A stretch of 39,520 bases of DNA from NCBI GenBank assembly GCA_009778135.1, contig WRKJ01000095.1, positions 1 to 39,520 of the forward strand. Reading direction: 5' to 3'. This document shows, piece by piece, positions 1 through 35,866 of this stretch (position 1 is its first letter; each line of letters opens with the position of its first letter). The stretch comes from Defluviitaleaceae bacterium. GTDB lineage: Bacteria; Bacillota_I; Bacilli_A; MOL361; Turicibacteraceae. The notes beneath the pieces are model-generated. The model was not told the DNA's origin, made no database searches, and saw only the letters and a program-made list of their open reading frames with translations. Both the position numbers and the translations under genes were made by a program.

Positions 1-92
1 CCTCGAGGTCATTTCTTGTCCTGTACTGATCACCTCGTGATAAGTCGGACTTCAAAATGCTTGTCGGGGTTTACACGCTCGTTTTCACTTTT
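1..92 (-). repeat. Left copy of the 120-bp structured repeat/RNA element (truncated by window edge)
   Basis: Read on the minus strand from 92 to 1, this stretch is nearly identical to the units at 22769-22860 and 22889-22980. It begins AAAAGTG, contains the CCCCGACAAGCATTTTGAAG segment and the GTCC...GGAC hairpin, and ends at CCTCGAGG where the window stops. Differences from the right-hand copies are few: a changed triplet before CCCC, one A-for-T near the start, and GAG for GAA in the hairpin loop. It lies downstream of sigE but beyond that gene's terminator and has its own promoter at 94-122, so it looks like a separate transcription unit. Its full length and what follows it cannot be seen. 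Confidence 0.85.
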
Positions 93-93
93 A

Positions 94-122
94 ATTGTAT
101 CATTAAATGCGCTAAAAAACAA
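94..122 (-). promoter_or_regulatory. Sigma-A-like promoter of the left repeat copy
   Basis: On the minus strand, TTGTTT (122-117), a 17-bp spacer, then TGA-TACAAT with the -10 hexamer at 99-94 and an extended TGN. Transcription would start about at the first bases of the repeat. The right-hand copy has an equivalent, stronger box (TGG-TATAAT) at the same position. Confidence 0.55.
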
Positions 123-7539: not shown

Positions 7540-8751
7540 CTAAACAATCAGTGCTTTTATTTGTTCAATGGACAACTTGGCATGTTTAGCAACCTCACCT
7601 GCTGGCATATTTGTTTGCAAAAGGCTTTTTGCTATTTCCAGTTTTTCCGCTTCTGCCCTCCTACGTTCTTGTTCAATGCTTTTTACTGCTTCAGCAGTGA
7701 CAACTTCCGCCTCAGCCATCAAAGCTTTTGCTTCTGTCATTGTCGTTTTTGCTTTTGTCATTGTCGTTTCTGCTTCTGTCCTTGCAACTTCTGCTTCTGT
7801 CCTTGCAACTTCTGCTTCTGTCCTTGCAGTTTCTAATTCAATCCTCACCGCTTCATGTTTTAACCTTCTATCTTCTTCTTCAGCAAGATGCCTTAACCTT
7901 CTAGCTTCCTCTTCAGCAAGATGTTTTAACCTTCTAGCTTCCTCTTCAGCAAGATGTCTTAACCTTCTAGCTTCCTCTTCAGCAAGATGTTTTAACCTTC
8001 TAGCTTCCTCTTCAGCAAGGCGTTTTTGCTCTAGTCGATCAATGAGATCAGCCAACTCTCGCTCTTCTTTTGTAAACGCAGTAATTTCTGACATGGTAGC
8101 CGCCTCCTGTAAATAAGATGGTGCTTCTTCTGGTACACGTCCTGTTTTGAAATATGCCAGCCATAATTGTAAGTTTTTCGGTAACTTCGATGTGTCTTTG
8201 TTGATCTCAACGTAAATTTCCAGTCCTAAGTTTAAATTATTTTTATAGACTTGATGTCTAAAATCGTATGGACGTAAAAAACGAATGGCGATCTCATCTT
8301 TGAAATGGTTATCTTCTAAAATGATAACGCCGATAACTGGTTTTAAATTGGCATATTTTGATTGCGTTTTGTCCGTTGTACGCGCATAATGCTGCGCAAA
8401 TTTTTGACCAATGTTATAAGCGACACGTTCCTCAAGATAAGTCTGGTCTCGTTTTTGCATTTCGAGTAAGAAACGACTCCCATTTTCATCTCGACAAGCA
8501 TAGTCCACTTCTGTGTTGAGTAAAAGATGTTCATGATGAGATCGAAGCTGATTCACCTCTTGAAAGTTATAAGGCGTTTCGATGGAAAGAGCGGAAATAC
8601 GAAGACCTCCAAGTGGATCATACGCTGCTAAGTCTTGAAGAAATCCTTCACTAATATGAATTAATTCAGGCGAAGCAAACAAGCGTTTGAAATTTAAATC
8701 GTTTGTCGGAAGAATCACTTTACGTTGTTCTTTACTGTCATTATACATCAT
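7540..8751 (-). CDS. Rpn-family PD-(D/E)XK nuclease/transposase-like protein with coiled-coil tail
   Basis: Member of the recombination-promoting nuclease (Rpn, PD-(D/E)XK transposase) family. The N-terminal 230 residues hold the nuclease core: the start LPTNDLNFKRLFASPE, then TEVDYACRDENGSRFLLEMQ with the aspartate and glutamate of the D...ExQ active site, VAYNIGQKFAQHYAR, and VIGVIILEDNHF. Residues about 240-300 are five 11-residue units (LAEEEARRLKH/RLRH), followed by about seven 7-residue units (ARTEAEV, TTMTKAK and similar), giving a long charged coiled coil. The end, MPAGEVAKHAKLSIEQIKAL, resembles the short helix-turn-helix tail found in Rpn relatives. No terminal inverted repeats or partner transposition genes are nearby. 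An AAAGGAG site precedes the ATG; an alternative ATG lies one codon in. Confidence 0.88.
   Translation of the reverse strand: MMYNDSKEQRKVILPTNDLNFKRLFASPELIHISEGFLQDLAAYDPLGGLRISALSIETPYNFQEVNQLRSHHEHLLLNTEVDYACRDENGSRFLLEMQKRDQTYLEERVAYNIGQKFAQHYARTTDKTQSKYANLKPVIGVIILEDNHFKDEIAIRFLRPYDFRHQVYKNNLNLGLEIYVEINKDTSKLPKNLQLWLAYFKTGRVPEEAPSYLQEAATMSEITAFTKEERELADLIDRLEQKRLAEEEARRLKHLAEEEARRLRHLAEEEARRLKHLAEEEARRLRHLAEEEDRRLKHEAVRIELETARTEAEVARTEAEVARTEAETTMTKAKTTMTEAKALMAEAEVVTAEAVKSIEQERRRAEAEKLEIAKSLLQTNMPAGEVAKHAKLSIEQIKALIV
7740..8030 (-). repeat. In-frame 33-bp and 21-bp tandem repeats inside the Rpn-like gene
   Basis: About five 33-bp units encode LAEEEARRLKH-type 11-mers (about 7855-8025), followed on the minus strand by about seven 21-bp units encoding 7-mers (about 7700-7850). 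The 33-bp units alternate between TTTTAACC and TCTTAACC versions (K versus R), suggesting expansion of a two-unit block. Confidence 0.85.
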
Positions 8752-11882: not shown

Positions 11883-12881
11883 TCATTTATCTTCGGATTT
11901 TTCAACATTTTTCTTCTCAGATTTTTTCGCTGGTTTTTTCGGTGCATTCATTTCATCATAAATGCTCATGGCAATTAACCCAGGTGCTAATTTTTCATTT
12001 AAGAGTGAAATATCAATCAGCGTATTGCCACTTAAATGCTGGGTCAACCATAAAAGATCGATACAGAGACTTTTCATAAAAAAATGATGGATGATCAACT
12101 GATTTTTTTGTGACTTCAAATAATCAGTAATGGTTTTCGTTGTACTACTCGATTGATGATAATGAGATAAAAATTTCAGCATGTCGTGGGTTGGGATATC
12201 AAAAACACTGTGTTCAAAGTTGATCAAATGGTTTTTCTTCGCACTCGGTAACACATTGGCGACATTCACATCACCATGCGTCATGGCAATCGGTAACTGT
12301 TTTTTCCGCCCTAACAGTCGATAAAACTTTTTCATGGCGTCATCACTGCGCCGATACATCCCATACATTAACGGATACATCATGAGAATTTGCCATTCAA
12401 AAGGTGAACGAGACAGTTTTATTTCATACTGGCCCATCATTGTCTCAAGGGTCACAAAATTTTCTTCTAAACGTCTGTAATCTGTTTCATACATCCAAAA
12501 CACTTCATCGTCGTTTTTATCCACTGTGACCTCAGTCGCTTCATGCAGCTGATTTAACAACTTGGCATAATCACGTACCCGACTTTCAAATGGCATCGGT
12601 GTTTGCGCCACATAATCAGTTAAATAAGCAAATCCATCCTTTCCTTGTGCCATGCGCGCACCAGAACGGGTTTCGTAAATCGGCAAAACCACTTCTGGCA
12701 ATTCTTTATGGGCATAAAGCTGCTTCATCACAAAGTCCTCATCCCCGTTCGCAAATTTTAATAAATATGCCTTTTGACTTGATTCTAGCTTAAAAACTTT
12801 ATCGGTTAATTGCGCCAAACGACGCACATCAATGTCGTAGTGCGCTTGGACAAAAGCAGCAACATCAGAGCGTTTTTTCAT
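11883..12881 (-). CDS. ysxE: CotS-family spore coat kinase-like protein YsxE
   Basis: Kinase-fold (aminoglycoside phosphotransferase-like) protein of the CotS/YsxE family, connected with the spore coat. The 332-residue product has the catalytic-loop motif MTHGDVNVANVL (HGDxxxxN, about residue 199). The following metal-binding position reads LINFEHSVFDIP, with Asn where active kinases have Asp. A long helical C-terminal region and a lysine-rich tail (KKPAKKSEKKNVEKSEDK) follow. The start overlaps the end of spoVID by 17 bases and lacks a ribosome site of its own, suggesting coupling. The order spoVID-ysxE is the same as in Bacillus subtilis, which makes the assignment stronger than sequence alone. 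Confidence 0.85.
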   Translation of the reverse strand: MKKRSDVAAFVQAHYDIDVRRLAQLTDKVFKLESSQKAYLLKFANGDEDFVMKQLYAHKELPEVVLPIYETRSGARMAQGKDGFAYLTDYVAQTPMPFESRVRDYAKLLNQLHEATEVTVDKNDDEVFWMYETDYRRLEENFVTLETMMGQYEIKLSRSPFEWQILMMYPLMYGMYRRSDDAMKKFYRLLGRKKQLPIAMTHGDVNVANVLPSAKKNHLINFEHSVFDIPTHDMLKFLSHYHQSSSTTKTITDYLKSQKNQLIIHHFFMKSLCIDLLWLTQHLSGNTLIDISLLNEKLAPGLIAMSIYDEMNAPKKPAKKSEKKNVEKSEDK

Positions 12882-14595
12882 AGCGTAGCATCACACAATC
12901 ACCAACAGACACACCATTCGCTAACGCTGATAAATTCCATACATCATCAAGGGTCGCCGTGTAACGTTCAAGAATCCCACCGAGCGTCACTGTTTCTTCT
13001 TTCACATAGATCATTTTAATGGTCGTTTCACCATCTGCAAATTGTTGTGCCACAGAATCCATGTGTATCACAGGTGGTCTTTTTTCGATGCTTTCAACCT
13101 CTTTTTCAATCGGTGCAACTTCCTCTTTTGCCATCACTTCCTCACTTTCAATGTTTTCCATTTCCATCTCAATAGGTATCACCTCAACTTCTTTCACTGA
13201 AACAGGTTCAACATCTTTTACTGAAATAGGTTTTAAAACTGCTTTCATTGGGGTGGGTTCTGCCACTTTTTCAACTGTGGTCACTTCATGACGCATGCGC
13301 TGTTTTTCTTTCTCTTTAAAAGCAGTTCCTCGTTTCATGGCAAATAATTCATCCATTAATGCCGCAGCACTTTCTGATAAATGAGGGGACCGTCTTTCAT
13401 GAACGACTTCCGCCACAGGAGGAGACACTGCTTCAACTTCTACAACAGGTTCTTCCGCTGCTTCCAAAGCTTCTACAGGTTCGAATGCAAGTGACTCAAT
13501 GTCGACCATCCGTTCTTCAATGGCAATTAAAGGCGAATATGGAATCTCTTCAAACACCTCTGTCTCAACCCGATCAACAGAGACTTCCGGTTCTTCCTCT
13601 AAGACTTCTAATTCAACAACGTCGACAAAAGCTTCCTGTTGTTCTTCGACTGCTTCCGCTTCAACCCGATCAACAGAAACTTCCCGTTCTTCTTCTGAGA
13701 CTTCTAATTCAACAACGTCGACAAAAGCTTCCTGTTGTTCTTCTACTGCTTCTGCTTCAACCCGATCAACAGAGACTTCTCGTTCTTCCTCTAAGACTTC
13801 TAATTCAACAACGTCGACGAAAGCTTCCTGTTGTTCTTCGCATGCTTCCGCTTCAACATGGTCAACAGAGACTTCTCGTTCTTCCTCTAAGACTTCTAAT
13901 TCAACAACGTCGACAAAAGCTTCCTGTTGTTCTTCGACTGCTTCTGCTTCAACCCGATCAACAAAGACTTCTCGTTCTTCCTCTGAGACTTCCAATTCAG
14001 CAACGTCGACAAAAGCTTCCTGTCGTACTTCTAAAACCTCATCTTCAACTGTTTCAACAAAAATGGCGTGATCTGCTTCGATCACTTCCATGTGAATCTC
14101 TGATTCAGTAAGTGCTTCCTCTCTTGCGTGACATGCTTTTTCAAACACTTGCTCTGCTTCATGTGAGGAAGACGTGACAAAATCAAAGGGTTCAATCACC
14201 ACTTCTTCATAAACAGGTTCTTCAACGACTGGATCCATCCAAGCATCCATGATGGCTTCACGGTTATTTGCTTCTTGATAGCCTTTTAATTCAACTTCAA
14301 GATTGAGTGTCAATGATTCTTTATTGATCACACGATAATCAAAAGAAATCACTTCCGGCTTCACATCAGGCTCACCCCCTAAGTAAGGTAAAGTAATATC
14401 AAGTGGCACGCTGCCGTCAAAGGGTGCTTCGCCAAGATCAGGTGTTAAATAGGAGCCTCTGAATGCTAAGTAGCCGTGGATTTCGATATCGCTACCTGTC
14501 ACCAAACATCGTGTTTCCGGCTTAATATCAATGGTAATCATATCGTGAACATCTGCAATCTCCAGTGTGTGATCTAGATTAAATTTATAACTCAT
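12865..14595 (-). CDS. spoVID: SpoVID-like spore coat assembly protein with expanded acidic repeats
   Basis: Organises coat encasement on the forespore surface in Bacillus. Of its 576 residues, the N-terminal 105 resemble the SpoVID N-domain (DVHDMITIDIKPETRCLVTG, then IEIHGYLAFRGSYL). A highly acidic middle follows (about 115-470). The final 45 residues form a LysM-like module (TVTLGGILERYTATLDDVWN and ALANGVSVGDCVMLRYE), as in SpoVID. The middle includes five tandem 32-residue repeats with EEQQEAFVDVVELEV and EEEREVSVDRVEAEA halves. A GAGGGGG site precedes the ATG by 8 bases. A sigma-E-like promoter lies at 14631-14660, in keeping with sigma-E control in Bacillus. The adjoining ysxE supports the call. 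Confidence 0.85.
   Translation of the reverse strand: MSYKFNLDHTLEIADVHDMITIDIKPETRCLVTGSDIEIHGYLAFRGSYLTPDLGEAPFDGSVPLDITLPYLGGEPDVKPEVISFDYRVINKESLTLNLEVELKGYQEANNREAIMDAWMDPVVEEPVYEEVVIEPFDFVTSSSHEAEQVFEKACHAREEALTESEIHMEVIEADHAIFVETVEDEVLEVRQEAFVDVAELEVSEEEREVFVDRVEAEAVEEQQEAFVDVVELEVLEEEREVSVDHVEAEACEEQQEAFVDVVELEVLEEEREVSVDRVEAEAVEEQQEAFVDVVELEVSEEEREVSVDRVEAEAVEEQQEAFVDVVELEVLEEEPEVSVDRVETEVFEEIPYSPLIAIEERMVDIESLAFEPVEALEAAEEPVVEVEAVSPPVAEVVHERRSPHLSESAAALMDELFAMKRGTAFKEKEKQRMRHEVTTVEKVAEPTPMKAVLKPISVKDVEPVSVKEVEVIPIEMEMENIESEEVMAKEEVAPIEKEVESIEKRPPVIHMDSVAQQFADGETTIKMIYVKEETVTLGGILERYTATLDDVWNLSALANGVSVGDCVMLRYEKTL
13555..14040 (-). repeat. Five tandem 96-bp repeats in spoVID
   Basis: The landmark GTCGAC recurs at 13621, 13717, 13813, 13909 and 14005, exactly 96 bp apart, giving five in-frame 32-residue acidic units. 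The copies differ by scattered substitutions, many of them silent. Confidence 0.92.
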
Positions 14596-22738: not shown

Positions 22739-22767
22739 TTGCCATATGACCGCAAGCATGGTATAAT
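22739..22767 (+). promoter_or_regulatory. Strong promoter ahead of the tandem repeat array
   Basis: TTGCCA (22739-22744), exactly 17 bases, TATAAT (22762-22767), with extended TGG. The predicted start, near 22774, falls at the first bases of the first repeat unit, so the array should be transcribed, with the exonuclease gene about 300 bases downstream. Confidence 0.82.
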
Positions 22768-22768
22768 T

Positions 22769-23024
22769 AAAAGTGTAAACGAGCGTGGTAACCCCGACAA
22801 GCATTTTGAAGTCCGACTTATCACGAAGTGATCAGTACAGGACAAGAAATGACCTCGAGGGGTTGCGAGTTGAAACTAGATATCATTTAAAAGTGTAAAC
22901 GAGCGTGTCAGCCCCGACAAGCATTTTGAAGTCCGACTTATCACGAAGTGATCAGTACAGGACGAGAAATGACCTCGAGGGGTTGCGAGTTGAAACTAGA
23001 TATCATTTAAAAGTGTAAACGAGC
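22769..23024 (+). ncRNA. Tandem 120-nt structured repeat units, candidate non-coding RNA
   Basis: Unit 1 (22769-22888) and unit 2 (22889-23008) are near-identical 120-bp copies; the first 16 bases of a third follow (23009-23024), where the match ends at GAGC. Each unit folds as a nested hairpin. In unit 1, TAACCCC (22789-22795) pairs with GGGGTTG (22859-22865), CATTT (22802-22806) with AAATG (22847-22851), and 22811-22843 closes with GTCC/GGAC over ATCAC-GAA-GTGAT. In unit 2 the outer strand is CAGCCCC, which still pairs with GGGGTTG. No open frame with a ribosome site runs through it, and no T-run terminator follows. The function is unknown; I match it to no RNA family. Confidence 0.65.
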
Positions 23025-23079
23025 TATCATTAAAAGTGGCACCGTCAAAACAAGACTTTACATGGACGAGGAATATAAT

Positions 23080-35685: not shown

Positions 35686-35709
35686 GCCATCTCTCAAGAA
35701 ATCATCAAA

Positions 35710-35820
35710 TAAAACCTTTTTATGCTTTACTAAAGGGTCATTTTCGTGTACAATAAAAAGTCAGATAAAGCCTTTTTATACTTTACTAAATGGTCGTTTT
35801 AGTGTACAATAAAGAGGTTG
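35710..35820 (+). promoter_or_regulatory. Tandem duplicated promoter region of miaB
   Basis: Two near-identical 56-bp segments (from 35710 and 35766). Each carries TTTACT, 17 bases, TACAAT: P1 at 35726-35731/35749-35754 and P2 at 35782-35787/35805-35810. Conserved bases extend beyond the hexamers (CCTTTTTAT upstream; GGTC in the spacer), so a shared regulator site is possible. Confidence 0.68.
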
Positions 35821-35866
35821 ACTTAAGAATTTATAGTCTGTAAGTAAAACATAAGGATTGATGATC

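Follow-up and report, generated by a model that had tools for sequence, protein, structure and literature searches.

The window, by which we mean the whole 39,520-nucleotide stretch of DNA analyzed here, carries a tandem array directly upstream of a gene for a DEDDh 3'-5' exonuclease (PF00929; 23080..23829, + strand). The start of this gene was set by the same-genus ortholog (MIYDF), a longer open reading frame being possible from 23062, and no terminator lies between the array and the gene. Ahead of the array, the sequence reads as a −35-like hexamer TTGCCA (22739..22744, +) and a −10 box TATAAT (TGGTATAAT; 22762..22767, +) with a 17-nt spacer in which a TGG falls. A TTGCCA-N17 promoter is thus present just upstream of unit 1, as the original prediction had it.

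TRF over 22767-23024 returns a period of 120 with 2.2 copies and 97% matches, in agreement with the 120-bp period and two full units first proposed. Unit 1 (22769..22888, +; TRF, folding, and 130.6 bits with the covariance model R1) begins 1 nt past the −10 box with the left end AAAAGTG at 22769-22775, and consists of a structured domain (22771-22878) followed by a linker with the end ATATCATTT. Unit 2 (22889..23008, +; TRF, R1 133.1 bits) follows directly, the ends of the unit being AAAAGTG...ACTAGATATCATT. What had been read as a 16-bp third start turns out from sequence and TRF to occupy 23009-23039: an internally deleted 23-bp mini-unit (23009..23031, +) made of AAAAGTGTAAACGAGC at 23009-23024 and TATCATT, and then a fourth-unit start AAAAGTGG (23032..23039, +) that forms the ragged right end of the array, TATCATT-AAAAGTGG together spanning 23025-23039.

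The two full units differ at four positions: 22788 G>T, 22789 T>C, 22791 A>G, and 22844 A>G. The claim that differences in the stem preserve pairing stands for 22789 (U-G to C-G) and 22791 (A-U to G-U) and fails for 22788, a change left unmentioned, where a G-C pair at the outer stem edge is replaced by U opposite C and the pair is broken. The position of 22844 outside the stems agrees with our fold.

A DNA search of the organism's own genome places a second copy of the repeat in the window, at 1..94 on the − strand, directly after a −10-like box (GATACAATT) and cut by the contig edge. This copy probably continues on another contig (C57) upstream of a gene for a MoxR ATPase, judging from the 47 bases that the two ends have in common with identical variants. 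The window also contains a 56-bp tandem duplication at 35705-35813 (about 1.9 copies, including TGTACAATAAAAAG) just upstream of the open reading frame at 35858, which is a second promoter-region duplication with a sequence unlike the 120-bp unit, and two coding tandem repeats: one of 21/33 bp at 7729-8026 inside the open reading frame 7540-8751, and one of 96 bp (4.9 copies) at 13565-14034 inside the open reading frame 12865-14595.

Copies within and beyond the genome

The genome (2.32 Mb in 109 contigs) yields 23 matches at scattered sites when searched with the unit as DNA. With the covariance models R1 and R2, divergent copies were also found on six contigs (C86, C29, C107, C97, C36, and C69), as was one degenerate copy on C25; copies found by these models lie upstream of ilvC, of a response regulator gene, of a KDGP-type aldolase gene, and of a gene divergent from dnaA. 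Contig ends fall within the copies on C95, the contig of the window, and on C57, C73, C64, C54, C36, and C97, and from shared variants and overlaps the pairs C95/C57, C73/C64, and C36/C97 would each be one array that was broken up in assembly, which leaves about 21 loci after merging. The stand-alone non-coding RNA locus originally envisaged is therefore replaced by about 20 dispersed loci instead of one array. Copy number per locus varies (0.x, 1.x, or 2.x), most loci being a single unit or a fragment, and on C44, C58, and C59 only a left-end fragment is present, with the fold broken, truncated, or missing.

Some of the arrays have features of their own. On C107, and across the end of C36 and the start of C97, a full unit of the GAUGAAAUC subtype is trailed by a partial unit of the GACAAG subtype, so that one array combines units of more than one subfamily. 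To the left of the C29 array, the 3' end of the upstream gene (GAAGTCAGACGTAGCTAGGTATAATT) looks like a mini-unit that has collapsed, lying in the last part of the reading frame. On C103 (L019:1994-2040), the truncated unit that follows spoIVA continues into a hairpin and T-run, a likely terminator whose 5' arm is the ACCTCGA of the unit, used a second time.

Among the genomes searched, the family is found only in this species. No copy above threshold was obtained in seven genomes of the same family, nor in approximately 395 sampled Bacilli genomes and 392 sampled genomes of the phylum, these larger samples being searched with stricter filters that could miss weak copies; viral contigs, phages, and plasmids gave no copy. 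A scan for the exact motif over contigs of 84,980 species, which may omit the organism's own genome, gave four hits (Acidobacteria, Saprospiraceae, a Bacillota MAG, and Prevotella) that are unrelated and scattered and were judged to be chance. A 24-bp match in another genome (G007), which also had some T-box resemblance but no Rfam hit, was likewise treated as chance. Rfam gives no match to the unit at gathering threshold or even at E up to 10, as expected from the claim that it belongs to no known family, and no tRNA or tmRNA was found. The segment GAGCGTGGTAACCCCG of unit 1 slightly resembles AGGGTGGTACCGCG of the T-box antiterminator motif; UGGN is not conserved among the other copies and there is no Rfam T-box match, and this identity was rejected. 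A search of the literature on Turicibacter repeats returned nothing relevant.

RNA fold and compensatory changes

The sense strand of the unit folds as one long irregular hairpin composed of helices P1 and P2, an internal loop, and helices P3-P6. P1 is AGU/ACU plus a co-varying triplet and P2 is usually CCCC/GGGG. The internal loop GACAAG/ACCUCGA is constant as the surrounding stems vary, except in one divergent subfamily (C29, C107, and C36) where it reads GAUGA/AUCAA. The 120-nt unit folds better than its dinucleotide shuffles with a z of −3.15 (0/200 shuffles) and the 90-nt core with a z of −4.04, and the antisense strand folds more weakly (z = −1.83).

It is the copies across the genome that carry the structural argument. 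In a MAFFT alignment of 15 units, the 31-pair structure has 96.1% of cells paired, with 11 pairs altered on both sides relative to a shuffled mean of 3.7 and a covariation score of 0.190 relative to 0.078, and sliding the partner strand as a control drops pairing to 29-40%. When 21 units including the divergent ones are aligned, two-sided changes appear in 20/31 pairs and 80 cells vs. 18 in shuffles, in an alignment that was fitted to the model and so leans toward it. Several clear changes can also be read directly. The outer triplet occurs as AAC/GUU, GCC/GGC, GUC/GAC, and GAC/GUC; AGU/ACU becomes AGC/GCU on C98, UUUU/GAAA becomes UCAC/GUGA in one C65 copy (C65a), and GUCC/GGAC becomes GGGC/GCCC on C103; and on C86 nearly the entire inner hairpin is swapped with the architecture retained and GAAA closing the loop. 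The claim of a structured unit, for which two units were slender evidence, gains strong support from these copies, and the genome-wide comparison that the original prediction had named as able to refute it finds the stems kept by two-sided changes. Since the sense strand has 22 G-U cells and 2 A-C cells, the comparison points to sense RNA as the selected strand.

The assertion that this is not a decaying repeat is borne out for the divergence of the family, during which structure was kept, and fails for individual copies, which tolerate breakage. At paired sites of the main subfamily only one of the six one-sided private changes keeps the pair, relative to a random expectation of ~35% (small numbers), and C98 has two fully compensated pairs among its private changes. 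Pair-breaking is frequent among recent private changes, which leaves selection on individual copies at their sites unproven. Lineages that spread kept the fold, and single copies seem free to decay.

Placement, empty sites, and spread

Nineteen of the about 20 loci lie in sense with the flanking gene. The most divergent copy, which sits on C69 in the interval from map to infA, lies in antisense, and the orientation of the degenerate C25 copy is not assignable. At promoter-type loci, the repeat stands directly 3' of TATAAT, TACAAT, or TATCAT; at operon-type loci it stands directly past the stop codon of spoIVA, of DUF1430 genes, of the gene before ilvC, of a baseplate-like gene, or of a SelA-like gene. 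This sense position just past a promoter or a stop codon would have given many host genes a new structured RNA leader.

A genome of the same genus (G001, 75% complete) has the orthologous genes and gives no match in the R1 covariance search. At seven gene starts of this genome a −10 box occupies the corresponding position, with an ordinary leader and no unit, namely those of the exonuclease (TGGTATAATTGTC, with the −10 region CTTGTGGTATAATT), the PBP (TGGTATAATTTTT), the open reading frame after rnc (GTTATAATTAAAAAAAC), rsmB (TGGTATACTATAG), a polysaccharide gene (GCTATAATAGG), mutM (GATATACTGATAC), and MoxR (GTTACAATAG), and its spoIVA runs directly into its own terminator. Because −10 boxes are present there without the repeat, the promoters must be native and the repeats inserted at the transcription start. 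By this comparison the promoter at 22739-22767 is that of the downstream exonuclease gene, with the repeat inserted at its transcription start, and the proposal of promoter and array as one unit has to be given up: the ortholog has TGGTATAATT and no repeat.

The two ends of the arrays behave differently. The left end is uniform and fixed (AAAAGTG or AAAAGCG), and the last partial unit stops at many different positions, which makes the right ends ragged. Successive units are joined by a linker, usually ATATCATT, that is similar to the promoter side TATAATT; at the operon-type loci C103 and C86 its last bases are TAAG, as in the left flank there. At each locus the junction linker and the left flank share a few bases (AAG or ATT), AAAAGTG being common to all, and no clean target duplication can be defined at the junctions. 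Imperfect terminal inverted repeats, AGTGTAAACGAGC vs. AGTTTCAACTCGC (about 9/14 by eye), form helix P1. The arrangement fits a change in unit number by local duplication or loss between direct repeats after insertion.

Searches of the genome with Y1_Tnp and RVT_1 profiles found no mobilizing enzyme. An origin from IS200/605 (REP-like) elements was rejected, there being no Y1 transposase in the genome, and so was a retron origin, since the leader of the only intact reverse transcriptase is unrelated and the repeat is absent from its surroundings. That enzyme (C68, L121:6243-8015; 590 aa, RVT_1) looks like a retron reverse transcriptase, has a TEGKTD motif that suggests a fused TOPRIM domain, and is preceded by an inverted repeat GCGTGTGGCAA...TTGCCACACGC. 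Because the linker TATCATTAAAAG resembles the insertion sites, microhomology-primed copying or a transposase could explain the spread. We tentatively prefer copying primed on microhomology of TATCATTAAAAG with host −10 or TAAG sites, as one possibility among several; movement by a transposase outside the families searched is about as likely, and movement by an RNA intermediate is less likely than either. It is improbable that the repeat is a mobile structured RNA spreading via transcript-derived copies inserted at transcription starts; its fixed end, coinciding with the +1 region, and its ragged other end are what would be expected if a transcript from the first unit were copied 3' of −10 boxes. 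If true, such insertion of RNA copies would amount to a novel way of dispersal, one that hands genes ready-made structured leaders.

A dispersed repeat probably transcribed as a structured leader

Taken together, these data probably describe a lineage-restricted, non-coding, dispersed repeat of ~120 bp, of the BOX/bcr kind, that is transcribed as a structured 5' leader. Features of that class are all present: dispersed copies in one genome, a conserved secondary structure, and empty sites in a relative. The unit would have spread as a non-autonomous element with its left junction aligned on TATAAT- or TAAG-like sequence, and units would then have expanded or contracted locally between direct repeats. 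We infer that, after insertion, the repeat forms the transcribed 5' leader of the host gene's mRNA, and by analogy with BOX and bcr the folded 5' end would most likely alter mRNA stability or translation modestly.

The closest competitor, which we consider unlikely, is a plain DNA element of the MITE type whose hairpin serves DNA transposition only, the RNA fold being incidental. Dispersed non-coding copies, imperfect terminal inverted repeats, and empty sites in the relative would all suit such an element; a DNA hairpin would give covariation too, and the private changes are not pair-preserving. Against it stand the near-exclusive sense placement at 19 of about 20 orientable loci, the 22 G-U vs. 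2 A-C cells of the sense strand, the weaker fold of the opposite strand, and the finding of neither a matching transposase nor an autonomous parent.

We regard as rather doubtful a cis-regulatory RNA regulon, in which selection in place would maintain a ligand- or protein-binding leader for joint control of its carrier genes. Its sense orientation and 5' leader position at most loci, the strong two-sided changes, and a loop GACAAG/ACCUCGA that stays constant though the flanking stems fully differ (C86, C97, and C103) would be natural for a regulon, but the carrier genes are unrelated (exonuclease, dehydrogenase, rsmI, pyrF, mutM, PBP, rsmB, ilvC, and response regulator), some copies follow stop codons (spoIVA and DUF1430 genes), the repeat is absent from the same-genus orthologs, the copies on C44, C58, and C59 are broken, truncated, or fold-less, and no terminator/anti-terminator switch is seen. 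Finally, an independent promoter driving a tandem precursor that is cut into RNAs of about 120 nt is very improbable: a promoter does sit at the start of an array of repeating units, but it is the exonuclease gene's own and is unit-free in the same-genus genome, most loci are a single unit or fragment, no terminator splits the array from the exonuclease gene, and cutting into 120-nt pieces finds no support in these data.

The dispersed, leader-forming repeat that we favor has several relatives in kind. The bcr1-bcr18 repeats of the Bacillus cereus group are likewise lineage-specific intergenic repeats, some of them structured; their transcription within UTRs is common (PMC3446304; Kristoffersen 2011 cited there), bcr10 and bcr18 form conserved structures in 5' UTRs, and bcr3 is located next to housekeeping genes and is correlated with a longer half-life of the mRNA (PMC3446304). 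Unlike them, the 120-bp unit has no sequence match in Rfam or in the sampled genomes, its left end is locked to a −10 box or stop codon with copies almost all in sense, and its arrays run head-to-tail and include partial units. BOX elements of Streptococcus pneumoniae are small, dispersed, structured repeats almost confined to one species; they contain internal tandem modules (boxB), are transcribed, sometimes within 5' leaders, and affect nearby genes (PMC3049150). They are composites (A-Bn-C) with defined inverted ends and target duplications (PMC3049150), whereas here the whole unit repeats and no clean target duplication could be defined. The MITE-like repeats ERIC, YPAL, and Correia are non-coding, below 200 bp, known from empty and filled sites, and have orientation-dependent effects at the RNA level (PMC2229807); the 120-bp unit differs from these in lacking both obvious TA termini and clear long inverted repeats and in being placed at transcription starts.

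The repeat is thus a new family within a known kind, the dispersed structured repeats, and what is unusual is its placement, anchored at promoters and sense-only; such targeting is an uncommon rule that calls for a mechanism. It also supplies a new small covariance model usable for annotation. In this one species, the family rewrites the 5' leaders of unrelated housekeeping genes, always at one position with respect to the promoter and with a fold that is kept by compensatory changes, and its about 20 natural pairs of filled and empty sites offer a way to test whether structured 5' ends stabilize or silence mRNAs.
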